DNA from: Sneathiella sp. HT1-7 | GTDB lineage: Bacteria > Pseudomonadota > Alphaproteobacteria > Sneathiellales > Sneathiellaceae | Assembly (NCBI RefSeq): GCF_020731145.1 | Contig: NZ_JAJFZN010000002.1 | Location: forward strand, 372,001-436,000 | Length of the DNA: 64,000 bases | Direction of reading: 5' to 3' | Part shown: positions 38,521 through 54,488 of the stretch, piece after piece | Position numbering within the stretch: position 1 is the stretch's first letter | How the letters are laid out: the number at the start of each line of letters is the position of its first letter | The notes under the pieces: generated by a model | Database searches by the model: none | The model's input: only the letters and a program-made list of their open reading frames with translations | What the model was told of the DNA's origin: nothing | Program-made: the position numbers and the translations under genes

Positions 38521-38589
38521 TCCAGTCTAATTTTTGGTCAAAAAATTCATATCTGTAATGGTTTAGCCATCAGAATCTATAAGAATGTA

Positions 38590-38603
38590 ACTACTATAGT
38601 AGT
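38590..38603. promoter_or_regulatory. 14-bp perfect palindrome upstream of sigma-54 promoter 1
   Basis: ACTACTATAGTAGT is a perfect inverted repeat 11 bp upstream of the -24 element. It may be an activator or repressor site, but it is closer than a usual sigma-54 enhancer (80-150 bp), so repression or promoter-proximal binding is as likely. Confidence 0.4.
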
Positions 38604-38614
38604 ATTTACGACTT

Positions 38615-38630
38615 TGGCATGCTTCTTGCT
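38615..38630 (+). promoter_or_regulatory. Sigma-54 promoter of the first binding-protein gene
   Basis: TGGCATGCTTCTTGCT has GG and GC exactly ten bases apart, the invariant -24/-12 geometry of RpoN promoters (TGGCAC-n5-TTGC). A transcript would begin near 38641, about 59 bases before the ATG at 38700. The same element, in the same 15-base context, precedes the second binding-protein gene. Confidence 0.85.
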
Positions 38631-39930: not shown

Positions 39931-40758
39931 ATGAGTGGATCCCTGACGCCAGAGGAGGTGGCGGCTTTCGAGCGCGATGGATACTTCATGAAAAGGCGGG
40001 CCATTACCGAAGCCCATGCCTTGGACTGTCGTCAGCGACTTGAGGCAATGGAAGAAAGCCTTCAGGAGGATTGTAATAAGCGCATGAAGATCAAGGCGCA
40101 TGTTGTCTCCCCCTGGATGGTCGACTTGGCGCGTAACCCGATAATCCTGGATGCGGTGGAATCGCTTCTGGGGCCGAATATCTTGCTTTTCGGGTCGTCC
40201 ATGTTTGCAAAAGCGGCACAGAGCGATCGGTTTGTGTCCTGGCATCAGGATTCAGCCTATTACGGCTTGACGCCGAATGACTCCGTAACGGTCTGGCTTG
40301 CCTTTACCCCAAGTAACAAGGGGAATGGAGGCTTGCGTGTGTTGCCCGGATCGCAAATGGGGGACAATATGGAGCATGATGAAACCTATGACCCAAAGAA
40401 CCTTCTTGCGAAGGGTCAGACAATTCGCGGCGTTGACGATAACAATGCCAAATATCTCGAATTGGAGCCGGGCGAGTTTTCTATCCATCATGTAAAGACA
40501 GCCCATGGCAGCCTTGGAAATTTCTCGGATGATCGCCGGATTGGGTTGGCGTTTTTCTATATCGGTGCGCATGTCAATTCGACATTGGGGCGACGCTCTG
40601 CGCTGCATGTGCGCGGTGAAGATGAATTCAATTATTGGGACGAGGATCCCTTGCCTCGATACGATATGGATCCGCTTACCCTGGATTTTCTGACGAATAT
40701 GTGGACGCAATATCAGAGTAAGGAAGTTCAGCAAGCGGCAAAGGCCGGAAAGCTGTAA
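39931..40758 (+). CDS. Phytanoyl-CoA dioxygenase (PhyH) family oxygenase
   Basis: The 275-residue 2-oxoglutarate/Fe(II) oxygenase has the HxD ligands H105 and D107 (FVSWHQDSAYYG), the distal His near 192 (KTAHGSLGNFSDDRR) and the Arg after it for 2-oxoglutarate. It is 25 bp after the binding-protein gene, with AAGGAG before its ATG, so it is in the same sigma-54 transcript. PhyH enzymes hydroxylate varied small molecules, including ectoine and phosphonates. Here it probably acts on the imported compound or a derivative. Confidence 0.88.
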   Translation: MSGSLTPEEVAAFERDGYFMKRRAITEAHALDCRQRLEAMEESLQEDCNKRMKIKAHVVSPWMVDLARNPIILDAVESLLGPNILLFGSSMFAKAAQSDRFVSWHQDSAYYGLTPNDSVTVWLAFTPSNKGNGGLRVLPGSQMGDNMEHDETYDPKNLLAKGQTIRGVDDNNAKYLELEPGEFSIHHVKTAHGSLGNFSDDRRIGLAFFYIGAHVNSTLGRRSALHVRGEDEFNYWDEDPLPRYDMDPLTLDFLTNMWTQYQSKEVQQAAKAGKL

Positions 40759-40882: not shown

Positions 40883-41000
40883 ATGCAACGCCAGCTTCAA
40901 CTAACAATTTTCTCCTGCCTATTTTATGACCATGCCTGAATTAAATGGTTAAAAATTATACAATTTTAAGGCTCCTGAAAGCGGTAATTTTAAAATATCT

Positions 41001-41022
41001 GTTACGATAGTTATAGTTACGA
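41001..41022. repeat. Direct repeat GTTACGA before sigma-54 promoter 2
   Basis: GTTACGA occurs at 41001-41007 and 41016-41022, 15 bp apart. The second copy is part of the 15-base block TTACGACTTTGGCAT, shared exactly with promoter 1. The flanking DNA is AT-rich, as expected for IHF or activator contacts. Confidence 0.45.
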
Positions 41023-41025
41023 CTT

Positions 41026-41041
41026 TGGCATATCTCTTGCT
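41026..41041 (+). promoter_or_regulatory. Sigma-54 promoter of the second binding-protein gene
   Basis: TGGCATATCTCTTGCT has the invariant GG-n10-GC spacing and matches promoter 1 at 13 of 16 bases. The expected start is near 41052, leaving a leader of about 60 bases before the ATG at 41113. The Liv-type transporter genes follow, so nitrogen-type RpoN control of uptake is implied. Confidence 0.85.
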
Positions 41042-41112
41042 AGTTTTCTTCCGAGAAGCTGCCTTGGGCTTGACCGTTCGGGGATTGATTGAACTGGAAG
41101 AAAGGGATGGTT

Positions 41113-42327
41113 ATGAAAATAACACTCAAAAAAAGATTGACGGTTGCCGCTGCGGCAATGGCCATGACAATGGCTGGAAGCGTGGGGCTCGCCTCTGCGG
41201 ATGATGACGTGCTGGTCATAGGGGCTCCATTGGCGCTAACGGGCGGCTTGGCGGATGAAGGCAAGAAGCAGCAGGATGTCTGGAAACTCTGGCTCGACAA
41301 AATCAATGCCGCCGGTGGTATTGATGTGGCGGGCAAGAAAATGCAGGTCAAGTTTGTCGAGTATGATTACCAGACAGATGGCAAACGCGCTGGCCAGTTG
41401 GCTGAAAAGCTGATTAATGATGATGGTGTTGATGTGATTATGGCGCCATTCGGTTCGGGGCATACAAAGATTATTGCCGCTGTCGCAGAGCGCTATCAGG
41501 TACCAATGCTGGCCTGTGTCGCCTCATCAGTTTCCGTCTATGATCAGGGCTTTAAGTATCTTTTTGGAACCCTCGCGCCGAATACCGGCATGACGGAATC
41601 CATGGTCGAGTTCTTCAAGGAGAAGAAACCTGATCTCAAAAAGGTGGCTGTATATGGTCGGGATGACGTGTTTCCGAAAGCGATGGCAACGGCATTGTCA
41701 AAATCTGCTGAAACCGGCGGCCTTGATGTTGTGTATAACGAACTTTATGCCGTTGGAACCATGGATCACTCCGCAGCCATTTCCGCGATTAAATCGGCAG
41801 ATCCGGATTGGGTTTACATGACGGGATATACGCAGGATTTGATCCTGGGCCGCAAGCAGCTGGCGGATATGGGAGTAACAGCACCTATCGTGACGATGGT
41901 AACCGGCCCTGCCTATCGCGAATATACCGAAGGTCTGGGTGATTTGGCTGATGGTGTGACAAGCTCAACTTGGTGGCACCATTCCACTGCCTACACCGAT
42001 GCGGTTGGGCCATGGAGTACAACAGCAGATTTCTATGCGGATTTCACGGCCGCCTATAAGTCTGATCCTGATTATGTCTCTGCCTCATGCGCGGCGGCGG
42101 CAGATGTTCTGGTGAACGCTGTGCAGGTCGCAGGTTCCAAGGATAAACAGGCGGTTCGTGACGCTTTGGCCGCAACCGATATCTTGACATTCTACGGCCC
42201 GATTGATTTCGGCGAAAATGGTATGAACCAGGGCCGAGAAATGCCGATCATTCAGGTACAGGGTGAGGAAATTAAGGTCCTTTATCCGGCGTCTATCGCC
42301 AATGCTGAAATGAAAATGATCAAATAA
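41113..42327 (+). CDS. Branched-chain/amide-type ABC substrate-binding protein (paralogue 2)
   Basis: The 404-residue periplasmic protein has a signal peptide (MKITLKKRLTVAAAAMAMTM) and the Peripla_BP_6 blocks VIGAPLALTGGLADEG, INAAGGIDVAG and DYQTDGKRAGQLAEKLI. Long identical stretches with paralogue 1 (such as YDYQTDGKRA and VYGRDDVFPK) show a tandem duplication. AAAGGG lies six bases before ATG 41113. It heads the livHMGF-type genes and is probably their main receptor; both proteins may deliver to the same permease. Confidence 0.92.
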   Translation: MKITLKKRLTVAAAAMAMTMAGSVGLASADDDVLVIGAPLALTGGLADEGKKQQDVWKLWLDKINAAGGIDVAGKKMQVKFVEYDYQTDGKRAGQLAEKLINDDGVDVIMAPFGSGHTKIIAAVAERYQVPMLACVASSVSVYDQGFKYLFGTLAPNTGMTESMVEFFKEKKPDLKKVAVYGRDDVFPKAMATALSKSAETGGLDVVYNELYAVGTMDHSAAISAIKSADPDWVYMTGYTQDLILGRKQLADMGVTAPIVTMVTGPAYREYTEGLGDLADGVTSSTWWHHSTAYTDAVGPWSTTADFYADFTAAYKSDPDYVSASCAAAADVLVNAVQVAGSKDKQAVRDALAATDILTFYGPIDFGENGMNQGREMPIIQVQGEEIKVLYPASIANAEMKMIK

Positions 42328-42351
42328 GCCTTGCGTAGGGCCTGACGGGTT

Positions 42352-42382
42352 GGGGGCAATTCTGGCAACAGATGTCGCCCCC
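42352..42382 (+). terminator. GC hairpin between binding-protein and permease genes (attenuator-like)
   Basis: GGGGGC (42352-42357) pairs with GCCCCC (42377-42382) across a 19-base loop. There is no T-run, so it is more likely an mRNA-stabilising or partial-attenuation element, giving more binding protein than permease, than a full terminator. Confidence 0.4.
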
Positions 42383-42446
42383 GATCTTTCCCGGCATACA
42401 GTAATTTATTACGCCCAACTGAGAGCAATTCTGGGAATCAATCACA

Positions 42447-43307
42447 GTGGACATCATTCAAATACTACTAAACGGCATTGTACTGGGATCACTCTATGCC
42501 TGCATCGCGATCGGCTTCTCGCTGGTATGGGGCGTGTTGAATATCATCAATATGCTGCATGGATCTTTCATTATTCTGGGAGGGTATCTGGCGTTTTTCG
42601 CGTGGCAGTATTCGGGCGTAAATCCGGTTTTTCTGCTCCCAATAATTGCGGCCTTATTATTTGGCCTGGGATACCTTCTGCAATATTTCTTTATCAATAA
42701 AGTCGTCATGTCACCGGTGCTGACAACCCTGACCCTGACGTTCGGGTTAGACATGATCCTCTATAATTTGATGACAGTCTTTTTCACCGCAACGCCAAGG
42801 CGTGTGACGCTGGACCTCGGCACGATAAACCTCGGCGATATGTATCTGCCGGTTGACCGTTTGATGGGCATGGGGTTGGCACTTTTCCTGACGGCACTGC
42901 TTTTCCTGGTGATGCGGGCATCAAAGATTGGCCGCGCCATTGTCGCCGTCCGCATGGATCGACAGGCCGCCACATTGATGGGCATTCGGGTGAATAATGT
43001 TTACGCCATAACATTTGGTATTGGCGCCTTTATGGCCGGTGCCGCCGGGGTGATTTTTTCCATGGTTTTCCCGATTACAACAAACCTGACGGGCACCTTC
43101 CTGGGGAAAGCGTTCGTGATCTGTGTGATCGGCGGGTTGGGCAGTGTACCGGGTGCCTTGATAGGCGGAATTGCACTTGGGCTGATTGAAAGCTTTGCCG
43201 GCTACACGATTGGCCCCCAGAATGCGACGACAGTTGGTTTTGTTCTCATGTTGTTTTTATTGATTGTCCGACCAACAGGTCTTGTCGGTGTAAAGGGATA
43301 CGAGTAA
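42447..43307 (+). CDS. Branched-chain-type ABC permease, LivH-like
   Basis: The 286-residue permease starts at GTG 42447 and has about eight membrane helices. It has the LivH-like N-terminus (QILLNGIVLGSLYACIAIGFSLVWGVLNIINMLHGSFIILG) and the ATPase-contact loop around AVRMDRQAATLMGIRVNNVY. It ends one base into the next permease gene (TAATG), so the two are coupled. In this island it likely moves a nitrogen compound rather than leucine, as in amide and urea importers of the same family. Confidence 0.9.
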   Translation: MDIIQILLNGIVLGSLYACIAIGFSLVWGVLNIINMLHGSFIILGGYLAFFAWQYSGVNPVFLLPIIAALLFGLGYLLQYFFINKVVMSPVLTTLTLTFGLDMILYNLMTVFFTATPRRVTLDLGTINLGDMYLPVDRLMGMGLALFLTALLFLVMRASKIGRAIVAVRMDRQAATLMGIRVNNVYAITFGIGAFMAGAAGVIFSMVFPITTNLTGTFLGKAFVICVIGGLGSVPGALIGGIALGLIESFAGYTIGPQNATTVGFVLMLFLLIVRPTGLVGVKGYE

Positions 43308-44281
43308 TGAAGCAGTTCCTTTATTTTGGCGCCTTTGCGCTTTGGGTCGCCTTGATCGCGGCCACTCCCTTACTTGCCGATAACTACACAATCCGGATTG
43401 CAATCTCGATTGCGATGTTCTCGGCGATGGCGGTTTCCTGGAATTTCATCGGTGGCTTTACCGGTTATCCCTCTTTCTCGACTGCGGCCTTTTTTGGGCT
43501 TGGGTGCTATGCCGGCGCGCTCGCGCAGCGTAACGGTATTCCCCTCGTGATGGCATGGGTATTCGCGACATTGTTTGTCGCCGTGTTCGCCGCAATGCTC
43601 GGGGCCATTATCCTGCGCTTGAAGGGGCATTACTTTGCGATTGGCTCAATCGCGATTGTCGATCTGACCCGCCTGATAACATCGTCATGGGGAAGCCTGA
43701 CCGGCGGCGGGGATGGATTGAATGTCCCGCTTTTGCAGGGCAGCCCACAAGAGGTATCGGCGCTTGTCCTCTATGTTATGCTGGCGATCCTGATTGTCGC
43801 TTTTCTGACGTCGATCTATGTGGACCGATCCCGGCTGGGTTTTGGACTCAAATGTATCAGCCAGAATGAAGACGCGGCGGATATGGTGGGCGTCAATACG
43901 ACATCCTTTAAGATTGTTGCCTATACCTTGTCCGCAGTATTCTGCGGTGCTGTTGGGGCGGTGTACGCATCCTGGGTTGGTTATATCGATCCGACGGACA
44001 GCTTTTCGATACTCTTGACTTTGAAAGTGCCGGTTATGGTTCTCTTGGGCGGTGCGGGCACATTACTTGGACCGGTTTTGGGTGCGGGCGTATTCGTCAT
44101 GCTGGAGGAAGTGTTCTGGGCTAATTTCCTTGAATGGAACCGGGCCATTCTCGGCGGTATTATCGTCTTTTTGATCTTTTTCCTGCCAAATGGGTTGCTG
44201 AAAATTCAGTATCGCACACTCTACGGGGCGTTGGTGCAAAAGTTACGTAGTGCCCCCAAGCAAGCGGAGAAAAGTTCATGA
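43307..44281 (+). CDS. Branched-chain-type ABC permease, LivM-like
   Basis: The 324-residue permease shows LivM traits: AVSWNFIGGFTGYPSFSTAAFFGLGCY near the N-terminus, LKGHYFAIGSIAI, and the coupling loop QNEDAADMVGVNTTSFKIVAYTLSA. It overlaps livH by one base and livG by four. With LivH it forms the heteromeric channel of the importer. Confidence 0.9.
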   Translation: MKQFLYFGAFALWVALIAATPLLADNYTIRIAISIAMFSAMAVSWNFIGGFTGYPSFSTAAFFGLGCYAGALAQRNGIPLVMAWVFATLFVAVFAAMLGAIILRLKGHYFAIGSIAIVDLTRLITSSWGSLTGGGDGLNVPLLQGSPQEVSALVLYVMLAILIVAFLTSIYVDRSRLGFGLKCISQNEDAADMVGVNTTSFKIVAYTLSAVFCGAVGAVYASWVGYIDPTDSFSILLTLKVPVMVLLGGAGTLLGPVLGAGVFVMLEEVFWANFLEWNRAILGGIIVFLIFFLPNGLLKIQYRTLYGALVQKLRSAPKQAEKSS

Positions 44282-45036
44282 CTGAAATTCTCAGACTGGA
44301 AAATGTGAGTAAAAGTTTTGGCGGTAACCGTGCGGTCAATGACGTTTCATTCAGCCTGGAAGAAGGAGAGATCATCGGATTGATCGGACCAAATGGTGCG
44401 GGCAAGACGACACTGGTCAATCTGATTACCGGAGTACATCCCCTGTCCGCGGGAAAGGTGATTTTCGCTGGAGAGGATGTAAGTCGACAGCAGGCATTTC
44501 AGGCCGCGAGGCGCGGGCTGGCGCGAACCTTTCAGATCGTCCAGCCATTTCCGAAAATGACAGTTCTGGAAAATGTGGCCGCCGGGGCTTTGTTCGGCGG
44601 CGGAACTGGTTCCGTTGAAGATGCTTTGGATTTGGCGCATGAAGAGTTGAAATTCGTGGGCTTGGACGCTGTCGCGGACACACCGGCGTCATCGCTGGCA
44701 TTGCCAAACCGGAAACGATTGGAACTCGCCAAGAGCCTGGCCATGCGTCCCAAATTCCTGCTTCTTGATGAGGTGAACGCCGGTCTGAACGCCTCAGAAA
44801 TCGATGGCGCCCTTGATCTGATCCGCAAGATTGCGGCGCGGGGGGTCACAATTCTGATTATTGAGCATTTGATGAAGGTGGTGCTTTCAATTTCCCAAAG
44901 AATACTGGTGTTGCATCATGGGGAGCTGATCGCACAGGGCGATCCCCGTACGGTTATTGAAGATCCCCAAGTGGTAGAGGCCTATTTGGGCTCTAAATTT
45001 GCAGCGCGCGTTAAAGCGGAGTCCCATCATGCCTGA
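44278..45036 (+). CDS. Branched-chain-type ABC ATPase, LivG-like
   Basis: The 252-residue ATPase has Walker A GPNGAGKT, the LivG-type ARTFQIVQPFPKMTVLENV Q-loop stretch, and Walker B FLLLDEVNAGLN. It departs from the consensus at the signature: where LSxGQ is expected the protein reads SLALPNRKRLELAKSLA, so the conserved Ser-Gly-Gly/Tyr-Gly core is weak. LivG proteins often have LPYGxQR-type variants, so activity is still expected. Start and stop overlap the neighbouring genes. Confidence 0.9.
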   Translation: MTEILRLENVSKSFGGNRAVNDVSFSLEEGEIIGLIGPNGAGKTTLVNLITGVHPLSAGKVIFAGEDVSRQQAFQAARRGLARTFQIVQPFPKMTVLENVAAGALFGGGTGSVEDALDLAHEELKFVGLDAVADTPASSLALPNRKRLELAKSLAMRPKFLLLDEVNAGLNASEIDGALDLIRKIAARGVTILIIEHLMKVVLSISQRILVLHHGELIAQGDPRTVIEDPQVVEAYLGSKFAARVKAESHHA

Positions 45037-45745
45037 GTCGTTTCTCGAAATTAGTAATGTTCAAGCCGGTTATGGCGATGTGCGTGTTCTGTGGGATATT
45101 TCCCTCTCGGTCAACAAGGGGGAAATCGCCTGCATAGTTGGCTCCAACGGCGCGGGAAAGACCACGCTACTCAACACTATTTCCGGCATCGTCAAGCCAA
45201 CTGCAGGCAGTATAAAACTGGACGGGCAGGAACTTGTCGGAACGCTGCCCGATGGGGTCTTGAAAGCCGGCATTGCCCATGTCCCTGAAGGGCGCCGCCT
45301 CTTCAAAGGATTATCCGTTCAGGATAACTTGATGCTGGGGGCTTATTTGCGCGATGATCGCGAGGCGATCAAGCAGGATCTGGAGTTTGTCTATGATATC
45401 TTCCCGATCTTGAAAGAACGGGCGACGCAGGATGCTACGACAATGTCCGGTGGAGAACAGCAGATGTGCGCCATCGGGCGGGGCATTATGTCAAAACCCC
45501 GCGTATTGATGATTGATGAACTTTCCCTTGGCCTGGCGCCGCGTCTTGTCGACCGATTGAGCGAAACATTGTTGGAAATTAATAAAGCCGGGTTGACCAT
45601 TTTGCTGGTTGAGCAGGATGTAATGACCGCCTTCGAAATTGCGCAGCACGGCTTCGTTATTGAAACGGGCCGGGTTTCAATTTCTGATACGACGGATGCG
45701 CTCGGCGAAAATCCGAAAATCAAGGAAGCCTATATGGGGATTTAA
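45029..45745 (+). CDS. Branched-chain-type ABC ATPase, LivF-like
   Basis: The 238-residue ATPase starts at 45029 (MPESFLEISNVQAGYG), with GGAG eight bases upstream and overlapping livG by eight. It has Walker A GSNGAGKTT, the LivF hallmark HVPEGRRLFKGLSVQDNLMLGAY, signature TMSGGEQQMCAIGRG and Walker B VLMIDELSLGLAP. It completes the importer and converges on the phosphoribosyltransferase gene with a four-base overlap. Confidence 0.92.
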   Translation: MPESFLEISNVQAGYGDVRVLWDISLSVNKGEIACIVGSNGAGKTTLLNTISGIVKPTAGSIKLDGQELVGTLPDGVLKAGIAHVPEGRRLFKGLSVQDNLMLGAYLRDDREAIKQDLEFVYDIFPILKERATQDATTMSGGEQQMCAIGRGIMSKPRVLMIDELSLGLAPRLVDRLSETLLEINKAGLTILLVEQDVMTAFEIAQHGFVIETGRVSISDTTDALGENPKIKEAYMGI

Positions 45746-46488: not shown

Positions 46489-46520
46489 AAGTGAAACTCT
46501 TTTCAGGGTCTGGCAGTTAT

Positions 46521-46862
46521 ATGAAAAAAGAAATATATCAATGGCAAGAGGTTGCCGCTGTTGAAGATATTACCACTGGTCAGCCATTGGAGGTGATCGT
46601 CGAGGACACCGTTGTCATCCTGTTGAAGGTGGGAGATGCCGTTAAGGCTTACCAGGGTTTGTGTCCGCATCAATTCGCCAGATTGTCTTTGGGAAGCATC
46701 TCAAAGGATTCCTTGCATTGCCCTCAACATAGAGCATGTTTCGATATTCATGACGGTACATGCGGCCCTGGTTGGCAACTGCCCGCGTTGCGTCAGTATC
46801 ATGTACGGGTAGACGCGGGCGTAGTGTCGCTGGCGGCCCCTTTGGCAATCATATCCGGGTAA
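46521..46862 (+). CDS. Rieske [2Fe-2S] ferredoxin
   Basis: The 113-residue protein is a complete small Rieske ferredoxin. Cluster ligands are C48 and H50 (GLCPHQ) and C67 and H70 (LHCPQH), a C-x-H-x16-C-x2-H layout like that of ring-hydroxylating dioxygenase ferredoxins. No reductase or terminal oxygenase is present in the window, so its electron partner is missing or lies elsewhere. ATG 46521 was preferred to GTG 46491, which nearly abuts the divergent gene start. Confidence 0.88.
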   Translation: MKKEIYQWQEVAAVEDITTGQPLEVIVEDTVVILLKVGDAVKAYQGLCPHQFARLSLGSISKDSLHCPQHRACFDIHDGTCGPGWQLPALRQYHVRVDAGVVSLAAPLAIISG

Positions 46863-46874
46863 AAATGAAATTAC

Positions 46875-48545
46875 CTAACCCTCCGGCCAGGGAGAAACGC
46901 CGCGCCCAATCAACCCTGTCGTCCCCGTTCGCTCCACCATTCCAAGGTTAATACCCAAACATGTCCGGGGGCGCGTCAGGTCCAGTCCGACCATGATGCC
47001 GCTATCCGACAAAGCGGGATGTGGCCCAATGAACGGTGCATGTGCGGCAGGGCTGAAGAAATCGGGATGAATATGTCCGCGATATCCTTCGGCCAAGCTG
47101 GGTGTAGTTCTCAAACAGGCGGCACCGAAGCCGAGCGCATCAATTACAGCACTGTCCCCAATTGCCGGCAAAGCTTCCGCCATTTCCTGACCTTCAAATT
47201 TAATTCCTACCGGAGGCAAGGCTGGACGTGTAATCCATGTATTCGGATCAGATGCCAGTTTATAACCGATGTCCTGCCCATTGCCACCGCAGGCAATGAT
47301 CATGTTGCTTTTGGCAATATTGGCCCCCGCACCGATCATAAGCGCAGCAGATGCCATGATGAAGTTCAGGGAAAACTGACCGGCAGAGGCTAGATACGCC
47401 ACCGTTTCAGTGTCGTCTGGAGCTGAAAACAAACTTCGAAATTTTGCTTGCGTCGCGGCGACCTGACCATGCAGGTCATCTCCGTTTTTAAGGCCATGAT
47501 CTAAAACTGGTAGCAAGGGGATTGGCGCGGTCAGCATTCTTGCGAGAACTGTACCAATGTGCTTCGACAACCGTTGTAACAATGCCAGTCCATCGGGATG
47601 TCCATTACCCAGTCTCAGCGCGTAGGGAAGGGGGCCGTCATTCAAGGGTGAAAACCGTCGATTGCCGGGTGCCGCCATATCCTCAACTTCCAGGCAATAC
47701 GCGCTGGGGCCGACGATAAAAGCTAACGGCGTTACCACACCAAAATCCTGTGCGGGACGGAGGTTAAGCTCACCATTTTTCAACTGGGTAAAAGCATCCT
47801 CTTCAGAGGCTGCCCAGCCTTCAAGTTGAGCTGCCGCAACCAGCGAATTGCGCATTGGCCGCGGTAAATTTCCCTGATCAGAAAAGGGAGGGCCAGCATG
47901 CAGCAGGGTGCGACCGGGCAGGTTCGGGATCAGCTCTTCGAGCTTCGCAATGCGTGTCAGGGCAGGCTCAACCGCTATCAGATTGTTATATGATTTCTGC
48001 GTAGCTATTGAGGAGCGGGATAAACTCGCGGTACCATTGTCGGCGGGCACATTGGATGGAATTTGTTCGTCTGTATTCGGGGTGTTTGCGTTAATTATCT
48101 GCGTCATCATTTCTATCAGACGCGGGCGATCTTCGGGCGAGAGGCTTTCAATAGTGCGTTCATGCGCGCGTTGTGCCTTTGCATCCAAAGTATTGAGAAT
48201 GTTCCGCCCTTCCTCAGTGAGGGAGGTGAGGCGGACGCGCCGGTCACTGCTAGAAACCCGGCGCTTGATCAGTCCGCGCCTTTTAAGCCGGTCCAGAATA
48301 TCCGTCATATTGGTTTTGTCGATTGCCACAGCCTTGGCGAGGGTTGTTTGATCCACCGCTCCACTTTGCTGAAGCGCCGAGAGGACAGAATACATCACAG
48401 GCGTAATGTTCTGGTCACCGCATTCAAGGGCGAACAGAGCAGTATGAATTTGATGCAAACGACGGATCAGAACGCCGGGACGCAATGTCAGGGATTCATT
48501 TCGCCATGGACCAGAGGATGCGGTAGTGGAGTCGTCTTGTTTCAT
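46875..48545 (-). CDS. MarR-DUF1116 fusion protein (regulator fused to AllG/YlbE-family domain)
   Basis: The single 556-residue frame joins two domains. Residues about 20-150 are a MarR winged helix with the catabolic-regulator opening RPGVLIRRLHQIHTALFALE, the recognition helix DQTTLAKAVAIDKTNMTDILDRL and the wing SSDRRVRLTSLTEEG. After a Ser/Thr-rich linker (about 155-195), residues 205-556 match DUF1116: LPGRTLLHAGPPFSD, PMRNSLVAAAQLEGWA, FGVVTPLAFIVGPS, NRRFSPLNDG, and GINLGMVERTGTTGLIGRGV. DUF1116 proteins (YlbE/AllG) are linked to oxamate carbamoyltransferase of allantoin breakdown. The GDDLHGQV stretch lacks the His/Asn pattern I recall from the enzyme, which suggests ligand sensing. 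It is last in the coxLMS-type operon. Confidence 0.85.
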   Translation of the reverse strand: MKQDDSTTASSGPWRNESLTLRPGVLIRRLHQIHTALFALECGDQNITPVMYSVLSALQQSGAVDQTTLAKAVAIDKTNMTDILDRLKRRGLIKRRVSSSDRRVRLTSLTEEGRNILNTLDAKAQRAHERTIESLSPEDRPRLIEMMTQIINANTPNTDEQIPSNVPADNGTASLSRSSIATQKSYNNLIAVEPALTRIAKLEELIPNLPGRTLLHAGPPFSDQGNLPRPMRNSLVAAAQLEGWAASEEDAFTQLKNGELNLRPAQDFGVVTPLAFIVGPSAYCLEVEDMAAPGNRRFSPLNDGPLPYALRLGNGHPDGLALLQRLSKHIGTVLARMLTAPIPLLPVLDHGLKNGDDLHGQVAATQAKFRSLFSAPDDTETVAYLASAGQFSLNFIMASAALMIGAGANIAKSNMIIACGGNGQDIGYKLASDPNTWITRPALPPVGIKFEGQEMAEALPAIGDSAVIDALGFGAACLRTTPSLAEGYRGHIHPDFFSPAAHAPFIGPHPALSDSGIMVGLDLTRPRTCLGINLGMVERTGTTGLIGRGVSPWPEG

Positions 48546-48605: not shown

Positions 48606-49772
48606 TCAAAACCTCAAGGCCCTTTTGATCCAACCCCAGAGCGCGGCGCTCAATAGGGACAAGCCATTTATATTGGTTTGTGTTGTCTGGTCCGGTTCTT
48701 GCCCCTTTGCAAGCGCCTCAATTGAGGCGGCGACCTGACCCAGAATACGGTCCGCAATCTCGGCCACCAGAGTGGGGCGGCTGAACTGAGATAACGGGCC
48801 CGTCAATTTATAGATCATCTCAAGGGCGAGTTCCGTGCCACCTTCCGGCAAACCGGTTACACGAAAATCAAGCATACCATCGAGTTGAGAGCGGCTCAGG
48901 CCATCCTTGCCACGACCAATTACATGACCGGATTTTTCAGCCTCATTCAGGTCCATTTTTGCTGTGCCGGTAAAGGCGGCCTTGATCGGACCCATGGCGA
49001 TAGCACATTGCCCTTGCAACAGATTGTCGTCGGTGATGTTGTCAATACGGGCGCCCGGAATACAAGACGCAATCTTTTCAGGATCCGATATTATATCCCA
49101 AATCTCAGACGTCGAAGCTTCAAAGGCCAGGGTTCGAGAAAGAGTGGGTGCGGCGGCAAGGGATTGCTTCGTTGGAATACTGGTTGCGCCCGATGTTTTA
49201 GCCGCGACGGAGGAAGTAGTCTGTGAAATGGCCTCAATCGGCTCAACCGCACTTGTTCCGGAGTTTTGCAGTGCTCTCGTCTGTGGTTGAATTTTTGCGG
49301 CGGGTGGGTTGTTTTCCAGAACATCAACGATTGCCGCAACTATCCCGGCATAGCCAGTACAGCGGCACAAATTCCCGGACAGTTCTTTGCGGATACGGTC
49401 TGCATCTGCATTGGGAAGGCGCCGGACAATATCGTAACCGGTCACCAGCATGCCAGGTGTGCAATAACCACACTGAAGCCCGTGGTGTCGCTTGAAGGCA
49501 TCGCGTAACGCCAGCATCAGGGGATCATCATCAAATCCTTCGACGCTGCGAACTTCCGCGCCTTTGCAGGCCGCGGCCAGCGTAATGCAGGACCGCGTCG
49601 GCCGTCCATCGACAAACACGGTGCAGGCACCACAGACACCCTGTTCACATCCCAAATGCGTTCCCGTCAACAGCAGGTCTTCGCGCAGAAAATCAGCAAG
49701 ATGCGTGCGGGGCTCCGCCGTTTCGGAAACCGGCGTGCCATTAACGACAAGATCGACAGTCGTATCGGTCAT
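48606..49772 (-). CDS. CoxS-CoxG fusion: [2Fe-2S] subunit joined to SRPBCC (CoxG) domain
   Basis: This is a single 388-residue chain. Residues 1-155 are the small subunit of a molybdenum hydroxylase with both clusters: C42, C47, C50, C62 (plant-type) and C101, C104, C136, C138 (LQCGYC, NLCRCTG). After an Ala/Thr/Ser-rich linker, residues about 210-350 form a CoxG/SRPBCC domain (EIWDIISDPEKIASCIPGARI, GPIKAAFTGTAKMDL), and the chain ends in a short hydrophobic, basic helix that could anchor it to the membrane. CoxG tethers CO dehydrogenase to the membrane. Start and stop are coupled to coxM by ATGA. Confidence 0.88.
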   Translation of the reverse strand: MTDTTVDLVVNGTPVSETAEPRTHLADFLREDLLLTGTHLGCEQGVCGACTVFVDGRPTRSCITLAAACKGAEVRSVEGFDDDPLMLALRDAFKRHHGLQCGYCTPGMLVTGYDIVRRLPNADADRIRKELSGNLCRCTGYAGIVAAIVDVLENNPPAAKIQPQTRALQNSGTSAVEPIEAISQTTSSVAAKTSGATSIPTKQSLAAAPTLSRTLAFEASTSEIWDIISDPEKIASCIPGARIDNITDDNLLQGQCAIAMGPIKAAFTGTAKMDLNEAEKSGHVIGRGKDGLSRSQLDGMLDFRVTGLPEGGTELALEMIYKLTGPLSQFSRPTLVAEIADRILGQVAASIEALAKGQEPDQTTQTNINGLSLLSAALWGWIKRALRF

Positions 49773-50596
49773 GCTGAAAACTCCTTAGCTACTTTTATCT
49801 GCTCGATGGCTCTGGTCAGAGCAACGGCATGGAGGTGAAGCGCGGTCGCGGGCTGGTCCGGGATAGCCTCAGACAAAGCCTCTATTGGGGATTGCGTTCC
49901 ATCAAGAACGGCATCGGGGTTGAGGAGAAGGGCGGGTTGCCGGCCCAGTGCCCCAATTGCGATGCGCGTACGGCTTTTTGATGGATCAACCAGGATCGCG
50001 GCGCTTGCCTTGGCAAATTCCCCGACCTGTCGTGTGTATTTCCAATAAGCCCAACGCGCGCCTACTCCTGGTTTTGGAACCTCTACAGCCGTTAGAATAT
50101 CTTCCGGACCGAGGGCCGTGCTATAGGGTCCGGTGATGAATTCTTCCATGGGTATGGTGCGTAAAGGCGCGTTCGTTTCAGCTCCGCGGACAAGGGCTGT
50201 CGCACAAAGTCCGGTCATGACGATAACCCAGTCCGCCGCGGGATCGGCATGGGCGAGACTGCCGCCAATTGTTCCGCGATTACGCACAGCACGGTAGGCA
50301 ATATTGGCCGCCGCATCGCGCATCCAGTGACCGGTTGGATCCGGGACCGCTCCATCTTCGACCTCTGCATGAGTGATGGCGGCACCGAACCGAATATTGT
50401 CCTCATGCTCCTCAACAACGCGCAATTCCGGTAACAAGGAAACATCGATTAATCCGGCAGGGCGGGTCAACCGCAAATTCAGCATCGGCCCAAGAGACTG
50501 ATTGCCGGATACCAGCTTGTTTTGCTCGCCACGAAGAGCGCTTTGGGCATCCGTCAAAGATTGGGCAACGGCAAAGTCAAATAGGGCAGGCTTCAT
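49769..50596 (-). CDS. FAD-binding medium subunit of a molybdenum hydroxylase (CoxM-like)
   Basis: The 275-residue subunit has the two FAD motifs of CoxM-type proteins: GNQSLGPMLNLRLTRP (31-46) and TIGGSLAHADPAAD (109-122). It passes electrons from the Mo subunit through the iron-sulfur subunit to FAD and on to an acceptor. It is translationally coupled to both the large and small subunit genes. Only the family is certain; the acceptor may be a quinone if the CoxG tail anchors the complex. Confidence 0.92.
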   Translation of the reverse strand: MKPALFDFAVAQSLTDAQSALRGEQNKLVSGNQSLGPMLNLRLTRPAGLIDVSLLPELRVVEEHEDNIRFGAAITHAEVEDGAVPDPTGHWMRDAAANIAYRAVRNRGTIGGSLAHADPAADWVIVMTGLCATALVRGAETNAPLRTIPMEEFITGPYSTALGPEDILTAVEVPKPGVGARWAYWKYTRQVGEFAKASAAILVDPSKSRTRIAIGALGRQPALLLNPDAVLDGTQSPIEALSEAIPDQPATALHLHAVALTRAIEQIKVAKEFSA

Positions 50597-52971
50597 ATTG
50601 AGTCTCCCTTAGCAGGTTTTGAAAGCTCGGCACTCGCAATTGCCGACAGCACACGCTCCGGCGTCATCGGGACTTCCGTGACTTCAGCGCCAATAAATGA
50701 AAGGGCATCATTAACCGCATTTGCAATTGCTGCAGGCGGGCCAATAGCTCCGCTTTCCCCAATGCCCTTTTGGCCGAAACGGCTCAAGGGTGAAGGGGTC
50801 TCCATATGTTCAATTCTGATGTTCGGCATATCGGAGGCGAGCGGTAAATGATAATCCGCAAGAGTTGAGGCCAGTGGCTGACCGGAGGCATCAAAGCGCA
50901 TTTCCTCAAACAGGGCAGTTCCGATACCCTGCGCCGCGCCGCCATAGACCTGCCCATCCACAATCATCGGGTTGATCATCGTACCGGCATCCTCAACAAT
51001 GACGTAGTCGAGCAAACGGACATGGCCAAGGTCCATATCAACCTCCACCTTCACCGCATGGCAGGCATAGGAAAAAGTTCCCGTATCCTTGGTGGTTTTA
51101 TAACCGGCGACGACATCCAGACCTCTAGGGTCCACATCGTCGGGCAGCAATTGCGGTTTCAGGTACCAGGTTCGCGCCACTTCTTCGATACTTATGGTGC
51201 TACTGCCAGCGGAGGCCATGCCGTTTTCGAGTGTAATGTCCGCAGGGTCGGCTTGCAGCAAGTGACCCGCGATTTTACGGATACGTTCCCCCAGCGATTC
51301 ACAGGCAGTCCCTACCGCGCCGCCGGCCATGACGATACATCGCGATCCCCACGTGCCGGTGGAGTAGGGCGTATAGGCAGTATCTCCATGGACGAGTTTG
51401 ATCTTTTCCGGATCAATTCCAATTTCACTGTTGGCGATCTGTGCGAGGGTTGTTTCCAGCCCTTGGCCATGGCTGTGTACACCAACTCGCAATTCAAGGC
51501 CGCCGTCAGGCGTCAGGCGGGCAGTTGCTTGCTCAAACCCCGGTACCATAGGAATGCCCCATCCATGATAGACAGATGTGCCGTGCGCTCCTTGCTCGCA
51601 GAAAATAGATAAACCGACCCCAATCCGGGTGCGACCTGTCTGGTTTTTCTGGTCCGCGCGAATGCCCGTCATGTTGATCGCGGCGACCGCACGCTCAAGA
51701 GCTTCTGGATAGTTACCGCTATCAAAGAATTTGTTCGTGATGTTGGTAAAAGGCATCTGATCCGGCTGCACAAGATTGCGCGCCCGAATGGCTTCTGGCG
51801 TAATTTTTAACTCTCTAGCAATACCGTCCAGCAAAACTTCCAATGCGAAACAAACCCCGGTTCTGGCGACGCCGCGGAAGGGCAGAATAGGAGGCTTATT
51901 CGTGGCGACCGACCAGGTTTTGCAGCGATAACCCCGCATAATATAGGGTCCTGGTAATATGCTGGCGACCTGTGCAGCCTCAAGGCAGGCGGAGAAAGGA
52001 TAGCTGGAATAGGCTCCGGAATCGACAATGGCAGTACAATCCACCGCCAGCAATTCACCGTCTGCTTTCGCATAGCCTGTAATTTCATAGCTATGTTCCC
52101 GGCAGTTGGCGCCCGCGATCAAATGCTCACGCCGATCTTCAATCCATCGGATGGGGCGATCCAGCTTCATCGCAAGGAAGCAGGCGCAGACTTCTTCGGC
52201 GAGCAGGATGCCTTTATAACCGAACCCGCCCCCGACATCCGGCGCGATTACCCGAATTTGCCCATGATCCATATTAAGACAGTCCGCCAGACCCGTGCGC
52301 ACAATATGCGGCATCTGTGTCGCAGAGTAGAGGGTGAGGAGTTCCAGGTTCCGGTCCCAGACCGCAACAAGGCCGCGCCCTTCAATGGGCGCCATACATT
52401 GCCGTGCCGTCTTGAAGCTGCGCTTGATAACAACGTCAGCGTCTGCAATCGCCGCCTCAAAATTGATATCGGCGTTGCTTTCAAGGAACGAATTCTCATC
52501 CCAATCTTCATGCAGCAAGGGGCTATCTTTGTCGCGAGCTTTGGTCATGTCATGGACTGCAGGCAATTCATCAAAGACAATGTCGATTTTCTCGGTCAGG
52601 TCTTCGGCTTTTGCTCGACTATCGGCAAGGCATGCGGCTATTGGCTCCCCCACATGACGAACTTTTTCATCTGCCAGTATGGGTTGGGTGGACGGGCGAA
52701 AGCCCGGTAATCCGGAAACAGCGCGAATACCGGACACCCCGGTCAGATCCCGACCGAAAAACACCCTTTTATCCGACTGTTCCGGTTTCATTTGGGAAAT
52801 AATTCTAGCATGCGCAAGTGGGCTTCTTAAAAACGCCAGCTCCAGCATTCCGGGCATGCGTATATCGGCTATGTAACGGCCCTTGCCATTTAAGTAGCGA
52901 TCATCTTCTTTTCGCATGAGCCGCGCGCCGATGCCCGTCTCTCGTTCTTTGGCTTCTTGATCGTTACTCAT
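50593..52971 (-). CDS. Molybdopterin-binding large subunit of a xanthine-oxidase-family hydroxylase (not CODH)
   Basis: The 792-residue subunit has the PDVGGGFGYKG and GIGESGAIGPPA (E739) signatures of the family; the Glu is the catalytic base. The active-site loop reads PFRGVAR (364-370), differing from AYRCSFR of form I CO dehydrogenase and AYRGAGR of form II, so CO is not expected to be the substrate. Such enzymes hydroxylate N-heterocycles (purines, nicotinate, isoquinoline-like) or aldehydes. Start set at 52971 after AAAGG. It is first gene of the four-gene minus operon ending in the MarR-DUF1116 fusion. Confidence 0.9.
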   Translation of the reverse strand: MSNDQEAKERETGIGARLMRKEDDRYLNGKGRYIADIRMPGMLELAFLRSPLAHARIISQMKPEQSDKRVFFGRDLTGVSGIRAVSGLPGFRPSTQPILADEKVRHVGEPIAACLADSRAKAEDLTEKIDIVFDELPAVHDMTKARDKDSPLLHEDWDENSFLESNADINFEAAIADADVVIKRSFKTARQCMAPIEGRGLVAVWDRNLELLTLYSATQMPHIVRTGLADCLNMDHGQIRVIAPDVGGGFGYKGILLAEEVCACFLAMKLDRPIRWIEDRREHLIAGANCREHSYEITGYAKADGELLAVDCTAIVDSGAYSSYPFSACLEAAQVASILPGPYIMRGYRCKTWSVATNKPPILPFRGVARTGVCFALEVLLDGIARELKITPEAIRARNLVQPDQMPFTNITNKFFDSGNYPEALERAVAAINMTGIRADQKNQTGRTRIGVGLSIFCEQGAHGTSVYHGWGIPMVPGFEQATARLTPDGGLELRVGVHSHGQGLETTLAQIANSEIGIDPEKIKLVHGDTAYTPYSTGTWGSRCIVMAGGAVGTACESLGERIRKIAGHLLQADPADITLENGMASAGSSTISIEEVARTWYLKPQLLPDDVDPRGLDVVAGYKTTKDTGTFSYACHAVKVEVDMDLGHVRLLDYVIVEDAGTMINPMIVDGQVYGGAAQGIGTALFEEMRFDASGQPLASTLADYHLPLASDMPNIRIEHMETPSPLSRFGQKGIGESGAIGPPAAIANAVNDALSFIGAEVTEVPMTPERVLSAIASAELSKPAKGDSI

Positions 52972-53078
52972 ATCAACCTTTCTCTTGCGGCTCGAAAAAT
53001 CGCCAACTTTGATGAGATGGCGTTGGCGCAAAGATCCCTGCTTAAAGGGGCGCCGGATTGCTTTTTGAGCCTGCTAAT

Positions 53079-53093
53079 ATTGCGCTGCACAAT
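53079..53093. promoter_or_regulatory. Imperfect 15-bp palindrome in the coxL/amidohydrolase divergent region
   Basis: ATTGCGCTGCACAAT pairs at six of seven positions about its central T. A related element, ATTGTGCGCTGC, lies at 53163-53174, sharing the TGCGCTGC octamer. Palindromes of this size suit MarR dimers, so the fusion regulator encoded in the divergent operon is a natural candidate. Confidence 0.45.
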
Positions 53094-53222
53094 AGTACAA
53101 TAATGGATTTTCAAAAATAATTGTAGATATAATTTTAGCTATTACAACTTTTTCCTTTTCCCATTGTGCGCTGCGGGATATATTTGTTCTAAAGCCTGTC
53201 AAAATGATAAAGGAAGTCGACG

Positions 53223-54488
53223 ATGAGCAATTTGAAACCTCTTGATGTTGTGTTGGAAAACGGAACATTGATTGATCCTGCAACAGGGTTGAACGGGAAA
53301 TACGATATCGGGGTTCAGGATGGTGTCATCACTGCAGTGAGTGACAGTCTCAAATCAGTCGAAGCGATTGAACGGATCGATGTGTCGGGCCATCATGTCA
53401 TTCCCGGAATGATCGATACCCACGCGCATGTGTATGAACATGTGACTGGTAAATTCGGATTATCACCTGATCTCGTCGGCGTTTATTCCGGTGTGACAAC
53501 ATTGGTTGATCAGGGCGGCCCGAGCTGCATGACGATTGGCGGCTTCCGGAACTTTATCTCGAAGCCGTCGGCCAGCCGCGTGCTTGCCTTTATTTCGGCC
53601 TATCTTGTCGGTGGGCTGGAAGGGCATTTGTACCCGGAACTCTACGGACCCAATGGCGTGAACGCAGATCATACAATTGCGGTTGCAAAAGATAATCTAG
53701 ATTTGGTCAAAGGCATCAAGGCGCATGCGGAGATTGGCGGACAGTCGCGTTGGGGAATGGATGTCATCAAGATCGGGCAGGAAATCGCGACGGCGACGAA
53801 CCTCCCGCTCTATATTCATCTAGGTCAGTTATGGCCAACGAGCAGCAGTGCGCCTATTCCGTCATCGGACGAACTCATTCGCGAGTTGCTGCCAATCATG
53901 AAGGAGGGGGATGTGCTCGCGCATCCATTCACGCGGCACCCTGGTGGCTTTGTTTCCGATGAAGGAGAGATTCACCCTATATTGCTGGAAGCCGTAAGAC
54001 AGAAGCAGATTCTGGTTGATGTCGGGCATGGCTCTCATTTTAGTTTTGACGTTGCGCGGCGAATTCTGGAGGCGGGGATTATGCCGTTTACACTCGGGGC
54101 GGATATGCATGGCTATAATGTCACAATTCCTGACGCGACGGATACGTCTGAACGCGCAGCAAACCCCTTTTCTGGCGTTGCTCCGTTTAACCTGACCATT
54201 GCCATGTCGGAACTCTTGCATCTCGGCGTACCGCTGGAACAAGTCATTGAAATGGTCACCTGCAATCCAGCGAAGCTATTGCGGATGGAGGACGAGATTG
54301 GCAGCATTGCGGTCGGGCGCGAAGCGGATATCTCTGTCCTTAAAATTGAAACCGGGCGTTTCAAGCTATCCGATAACAGTGGTGAAAGCGTGGTGGCAGA
54401 ACAACTCATCAGGCCGGCGTTTTGCTTGCGTGCTGGACAAAAGTTCGATGCTACTTCCGCGTTTGTACCGGATGCTATTGTCGCCTGA
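53223..54488 (+). CDS. Amidohydrolase/deacetylase-family metallohydrolase
   Basis: The 421-residue binuclear amidohydrolase has the HxH metal pair H67 and H69 (MIDTHAHV), the Lys for carbamylation K166 (VKGIKAHAE), H199 (YIHLGQL), further His in VLAHPFTRHP, and D294 (LGADMHG). The subgroup resembles the uncharacterised amidohydrolase/deacetylase enzymes, near dihydroorotases. AAGGAAG precedes the ATG. It diverges from the Mo-hydroxylase operon and probably hydrolyses a cyclic amide or ester product of hydroxylation; that role is inferred. Confidence 0.88.
   Translation: MSNLKPLDVVLENGTLIDPATGLNGKYDIGVQDGVITAVSDSLKSVEAIERIDVSGHHVIPGMIDTHAHVYEHVTGKFGLSPDLVGVYSGVTTLVDQGGPSCMTIGGFRNFISKPSASRVLAFISAYLVGGLEGHLYPELYGPNGVNADHTIAVAKDNLDLVKGIKAHAEIGGQSRWGMDVIKIGQEIATATNLPLYIHLGQLWPTSSSAPIPSSDELIRELLPIMKEGDVLAHPFTRHPGGFVSDEGEIHPILLEAVRQKQILVDVGHGSHFSFDVARRILEAGIMPFTLGADMHGYNVTIPDATDTSERAANPFSGVAPFNLTIAMSELLHLGVPLEQVIEMVTCNPAKLLRMEDEIGSIAVGREADISVLKIETGRFKLSDNSGESVVAEQLIRPAFCLRAGQKFDATSAFVPDAIVA

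Follow-up and report, generated by a model that had tools for sequence, protein, structure and literature searches.

A single open reading frame in the window (the whole 64,000-nucleotide stretch of Sneathiella sp. HT1-7 DNA analyzed here) joins a MarR-type regulator to an AllG-family domain. The gene, at 46875..48545 on the minus strand, encodes 556 amino acids and is defined by its open reading frame, its Pfam domains and its conservation in five Sneathiella genomes. On balance, we consider it probable that the product is a bifunctional protein in one chain, which originated by loss of a stop codon and combines an autoregulating MarR repressor with a metabolic AllG-family half; within this account, we infer the repression, the class of effector and the catalysis.

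The 556-residue frame contains no internal stop codons, and a domain search places both domains above their curated Pfam cut-offs, which confirms the uninterrupted MarR–DUF1116 fusion described in the original prediction. The MarR winged helix (PF01047) is matched at residues 47–104 with 46.5 bits (E = 3.5e-12, cut-off 24.6), and AllG (PF06545, the present Pfam name of DUF1116) at residues 261–465 with 126.4 bits (E = 1.6e-36, cut-off 27). The latter match spans positions 2–215 of the 215 in the profile and is full-length. An AlphaFold2 model based on an 85-row alignment has a mean pLDDT of 92.3, with values below 50 only at residues 1–10 and 159–171; prediction from the single sequence gave a pLDDT of 34 and was of no use. 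In superpositions of the model, residues 176–556 fit the DUF1116 crystal structure 3clq with a Z-score of 53.3 and an rmsd of 2.1 over 376 residues, while residues 12–157 fit MarR structures, including their N- and C-terminal dimerization helices, with Z-scores of 16–19, BpsR and PcaV being among the best matches.

Three segments can be delimited, all on the minus strand. The MarR winged-helix domain comprises residues about 21–152 (48090..48485) and is assigned from Pfam, the fold, the pocket residues R28 and H34 together with the wing D101-x-R103, and dN/dS. It is followed by a partly disordered, fast-evolving linker (residues 153–183; 47997..48089) and by the AllG/DUF1116 domain (residues 184–556; 46878..47996), whose assignment to a molybdenum-cluster subfamily of AllG is based on Pfam, the fold match to 3clq and conservation.

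Stop-free copies of the fusion are found in an alphaproteobacterial MAG, a Sneathiella MAG, S. litorea and S. sedimenti, at 92, 89, 85 and 81% identity, respectively. Because these four other Sneathiella genomes agree, an assembly artefact or a missed stop is ruled out as the source of the fusion. Within the family, 5 of 25 genomes carry the fusion. When 84,980 species genomes were scanned with two short peptide patterns, which very divergent fusions could escape, the best 80 of 172 matches were kept and 79 loci were obtained, with the fusion in these Sneathiella only. In surveys of 385 genomes of the class and 398 of the phylum, none of the loci inspected contained a further fusion. Four loci (L007, L020, L160 and L163) have long frames that were considered as additional fusions and rejected, since MarR is absent from them. 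Among 339 matching plasmid records, the best matches, from Azospirillum, carry MarR and DUF1116 as two genes. A literature search on MarR–enzyme fusions returned nothing relevant, and the titles and abstracts of publications mentioning DUF1116 give no pointer to a MarR fusion. The MarR–AllG fusion is real, conserved and, as it seems, so far undescribed, in line with the earlier statement that no MarR fusion is known to have been described; its general kind, a regulator–enzyme fusion, is already known.

Separate genes on the same strand, adjacent and with MarR first, encode MarR and AllG in Azospirillum, Rhodospirillales, Rhodovibrionaceae, Salinicola and related loci. In one of these loci, L070 from the Rhodospirillales MAG EAC21, AllG is 73% identical to its fused counterpart and a single TGA parts the two genes: MarR ends with ...DANSPTS-TGA, followed by AGGAG and the GTG start of AllG, in the same frame. 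The spacer of L070 is read through in the fusions with the addition of only two codons and, as judged from this alignment, the fusion linker is the former MarR–AllG spacer. Phylogenetic trees of the two halves show the same branching, the fusions grouping together (100/98 for AllG, 96/87 for MarR) and then with L070 (100/99 and 97/84, respectively), so that both trees give a single origin of the fusion with L070 as sister. Together, the TGA junction and the agreement between the trees argue that the fusion most likely had a single origin, in which two neighboring genes in one catabolic operon were joined when the stop codon separating them was lost.

Among the five fusion genomes, dN/dS ranges from 0.02 to 0.11 in the MarR half and from 0.04 to 0.13 in the AllG half, both below 0.2, and lies mostly between 0.13 and 0.38 in the linker. 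Both halves are under strong purifying selection, and both are working parts. The five genomes share no start at the junction that is accompanied by a ribosome-binding site. An internal start yielding free AllG was rejected on these grounds, and AllG is probably made solely as part of the fusion; the fused copy is also the only AllG in the genome of the window. The stop codon might have been lost by accident and without functional effect, and cleavage of the chain in the linker is even conceivable. This would accord with the parent genes of the sister lineage, which lie side by side on one strand and already share a frame, and with the loose conservation of the linker. Retention of the frame in five genomes, despite near-saturated synonymous sites in some pairs, makes such a neutral event quite improbable in our estimate.

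The fusion is the last gene of a molybdenum-hydroxylase operon on the minus strand, with 4-base overlaps or 60-base gaps between adjoining genes. The operon begins with the molybdopterin large subunit (50593..53031), whose true start, compared among relatives, is probably near 52974, and continues with the FAD subunit (49769..50596) and a 2Fe-2S subunit fused to a CoxG-like domain (48606..49772), all three identified by Pfam. The last of these constitutes a second fusion in the same operon, its two parts being separate genes in Azospirillum and Paraburkholderia. Divergently from the operon, a metallohydrolase of the amidohydrolase/deacetylase family is encoded at 53223..54488 on the plus strand (PRK09237, 384 bits, cut-off 371). 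A branched-chain-type ABC transporter (41089..45745, plus strand; open reading frames and Pfam) with a binding protein, two permeases and two ATPases accompanies the fusion in relatives as well, where it is conserved as a neighbor. Further conserved neighbors in the closest relatives are a phosphoribosyltransferase (PRK06031; 45742..46488, minus strand), a Rieske ferredoxin-like protein (46491..46862, plus strand; Pfam) and a PhyH-type dioxygenase (39931–40758, plus strand). A widespread cluster (L062–L066 and L067–L145) contains a molybdenum hydroxylase, a metallohydrolase or amidase plus an AtzH/HpxZ-like protein, AllG and an ABC transporter, with no AllF.

An alignment of the divergent promoters of nine loci, with 50 to 73% G+C, revealed the motif AGTTGTAAY-N7-RTTRYA-NYTACA with at most one mismatch. 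The motif is an imperfect inverted repeat. In the window it occurs uniquely at 53122..53149 on the minus strand as the putative operator AGTTGTAATAGCTAAAATTATATCTACA, with none expected by chance. This position falls within the region 52972–53222, where the original prediction had placed control of the divergent catabolic genes, and the conserved motif makes such control likely. The same bases also read as TTGTAA-N16-TACAAT, a promoter-like pair, so that part of their conservation may reflect the core promoter. The first transporter binding-protein gene is preceded by a second operator-like site (38586..38613, minus strand), which scores 26 bits, whereas shuffled sequences reach no more than 12.5. 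A third and weaker site, before the second binding-protein gene (40997..41024, minus strand), is under the matrix threshold in the window and has clear copies in L069 and L070. These two sites abut sigma54-like boxes on the plus strand (38615–38630 and 41026–41041, respectively), which are the only two exact matches to TGGCAYN5TTGCW in the window, where 0.28 are expected. The same layout is observed in L069, L070 and L072–L074, and the position of the boxes before the binding-protein genes suggests nitrogen control of uptake. A motif search in the clusters of Azospirillum and Paraburkholderia, where MarR belongs to another clade, found nothing.

We propose that the MarR domain is a complete repressor, which would most likely bind AGTYGTAAY-N7-RTTRYA-NYTACA in the promoter between the metallohydrolase and the molybdenum-hydroxylase operon. 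With a target at this position, the fusion would control its own operon, repressing it together with the divergent metallohydrolase. The similar motifs before the transporter genes are probably bound as well, and the transporter probably repressed.

The ligand-binding residues of BpsR include Arg26 and His32 (PMC6837509). These align with R28 and H34 of the MarR half, which are invariant in all fused and free MarR rows, while Tyr15 and His23 of BpsR are not kept. Retention of R28 and H34 indicates that the MarR half probably binds an effector of its own, and the loss of the other two residues leads us to expect a different effector, which is likely to be a carboxylate but not 6-hydroxynicotinate. 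The repressor would then be released once a carboxylate of the pathway enters the pocket of the MarR domain itself.

To characterize the AllG half, we compared the 5 fusions with 28 stand-alone proteins from molybdenum-hydroxylase loci and 14 from AllF (FdrA) loci. The fusions keep the family-wide core, namely LLHAGP, E242-G, P273, R311, G355-D356, H359, N422-G423, W437, G463-D-S465 and G544/G547/G549, and they retain all positions that are at least 93% conserved in the stand-alone AllG of molybdenum clusters. The polar residues characteristic of the AllF-linked type (CH 265–266, K307, NRN 360–362, NDH 388–390, K401 and R421) are changed in every fusion; in the free molybdenum-cluster proteins, too, they are either changed or vary. 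The stretch GDDLHGQV had been singled out as unlike the AllG enzymes. It does differ from the GDExHNRN of the AllF-linked type, but it is not specific to the fusions, since stand-alone molybdenum-cluster AllG share it; within the alignment it is a subfamily trait, and it therefore gives no ground for reading the AllG half as a sensor.

AllF never co-occurs with the molybdenum hydroxylase or the metallohydrolase in 84 loci, and two distinct AllG settings can therefore be recognized. In Paraburkholderia, Pacificitalea, Pseudomonas and Alloalcanivorax, MarR is located kilobases away or on the opposite strand and AllG lies among the enzyme genes; at some AllG loci, the vicinity contains no MarR of this type. 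Since AllG stays with the enzyme genes where MarR is distant or absent, a metabolic role is favored over that of a co-regulator.

The original prediction had considered a ligand sensor of enzymatic origin to be the most economical interpretation. As a sensor, the AllG half would have lost its metabolic role, or never have had one in this subfamily, and would only sense a carbamoyl or carboxylate metabolite to modulate the MarR half. Such a role would accord with the tethering of AllG to a repressor, with the many clusters in which MarR adjoins AllG and with the absence of the AllF-type polar residues. Decay of AllG into a sensor was nevertheless rejected, as the conserved residues show no loss specific to the fusions, and purifying selection acts on the AllG half, which takes the place of the stand-alone gene as the sole AllG of the genome. 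The MarR domain also keeps pocket residues of its own, unfused AllG is a member of the enzyme operon also where MarR is encoded elsewhere, and the fusion is recent and confined to one genus. We regard the sensor as possible but do not favor it and hold it to be rather unlikely; the bifunctional regulator–enzyme, mentioned earlier as the alternative, fits the observations better.

A closer coupling of the two activities can also be envisaged, in which the AllG half is catalytically active, as a new type of enzyme independent of AllF and AllH, and occupancy by its substrate also gates DNA binding by MarR, so that flux is coupled to repression. A one-chain trigger enzyme of this kind would signal pathway flux straight to its own operon's promoter. 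Selection keeps both domains in a single chain, AllG is a predicted homodimer in E. coli (PMC11326118) and MarR proteins dimerize, so the two halves could be coupled. The linker is disordered and fast-evolving, however, which does not suggest rigid coupling, and we consider this arrangement unlikely.

We favor a bifunctional chain with a complete AllG half that would go on doing the metabolic work of the stand-alone AllG proteins of this cluster; the reaction would probably be independent of AllF and AllH and act on an intermediate that carries a carbamoyl or amide group. In E. coli, oxamate carbamoyltransferase requires AllF, AllG and AllH, and the sole characterized AllG is a subunit acting with the other two (PMC11326118). 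For this reason, and because the residues of the AllF-linked type are changed in the fusions, we can only infer catalysis by this subfamily. In the genome of the window, the single match to AllF (FdrA) adjoins a sucC-like gene and is interpreted as the alpha subunit of succinyl-CoA synthetase. AllH (PF11392) has no match in this genome, with a positive E. coli control. Carbamate kinase, which usually accompanies the pathway and uses carbamoyl phosphate, is not found there either, the four AA_kinase genes being argB, aspartate kinase, proB and pyrH. With none of these three encoded in the genome, the fusion is an AllG-family protein and not an oxamate carbamoyltransferase of known kind. Another fusion-bearing Sneathiella genome (G390) additionally has a classical set of AllF, AllG and carbamate kinase (L057), and both types of AllG can thus coexist in one genome.

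The fusion offers a rare chance to watch a regulator–enzyme fusion at birth, as the sister lineage retains the stop, the spacer corresponds to the linker and both parents exist as free proteins elsewhere. It also draws attention to a widespread AllG subfamily, in clusters without AllF, that is tied to a molybdenum-hydroxylase catabolic cluster with a putative operator, and it provides a handle on the role of AllG proteins acting alone.

E. coli AllG (YlbE), a subunit of AllFGH, belongs to the same Pfam family and shares the core TLLHAGP, GD[DE]xH, NG, GDS and the C-terminal glycine motif; in contrast, the protein of the window is fused to MarR, is encoded in a molybdenum-hydroxylase operon, has changed AllF-type residues and occurs without AllF, AllH or carbamate kinase. 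The stand-alone molybdenum-cluster DUF1116 proteins of Azospirillum, Pacificitalea, Paraburkholderia and MAG EAC21 are members of the same subfamily, have similar neighbors and likewise lack the AllF-type residues, but are unfused. The Enterococcus faecalis DUF1116 protein 3clq has the fold of the AllG half, is only 23% identical and is also unfused. By sequence as well as by fold, the catabolic MarR repressors BpsR, which responds to 6-hydroxynicotinate, and PcaV, which responds to protocatechuate, are among the closest matches to the MarR half, but carry no second domain. BirA, PutA and NadR are bifunctional regulator–enzymes, or trigger enzymes, in which a DNA-binding and a metabolic domain in one chain control their own pathway. 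The MarR–AllG fusion is like them in the idea of its architecture and differs in its domains and in the putative activity of its AllG half.
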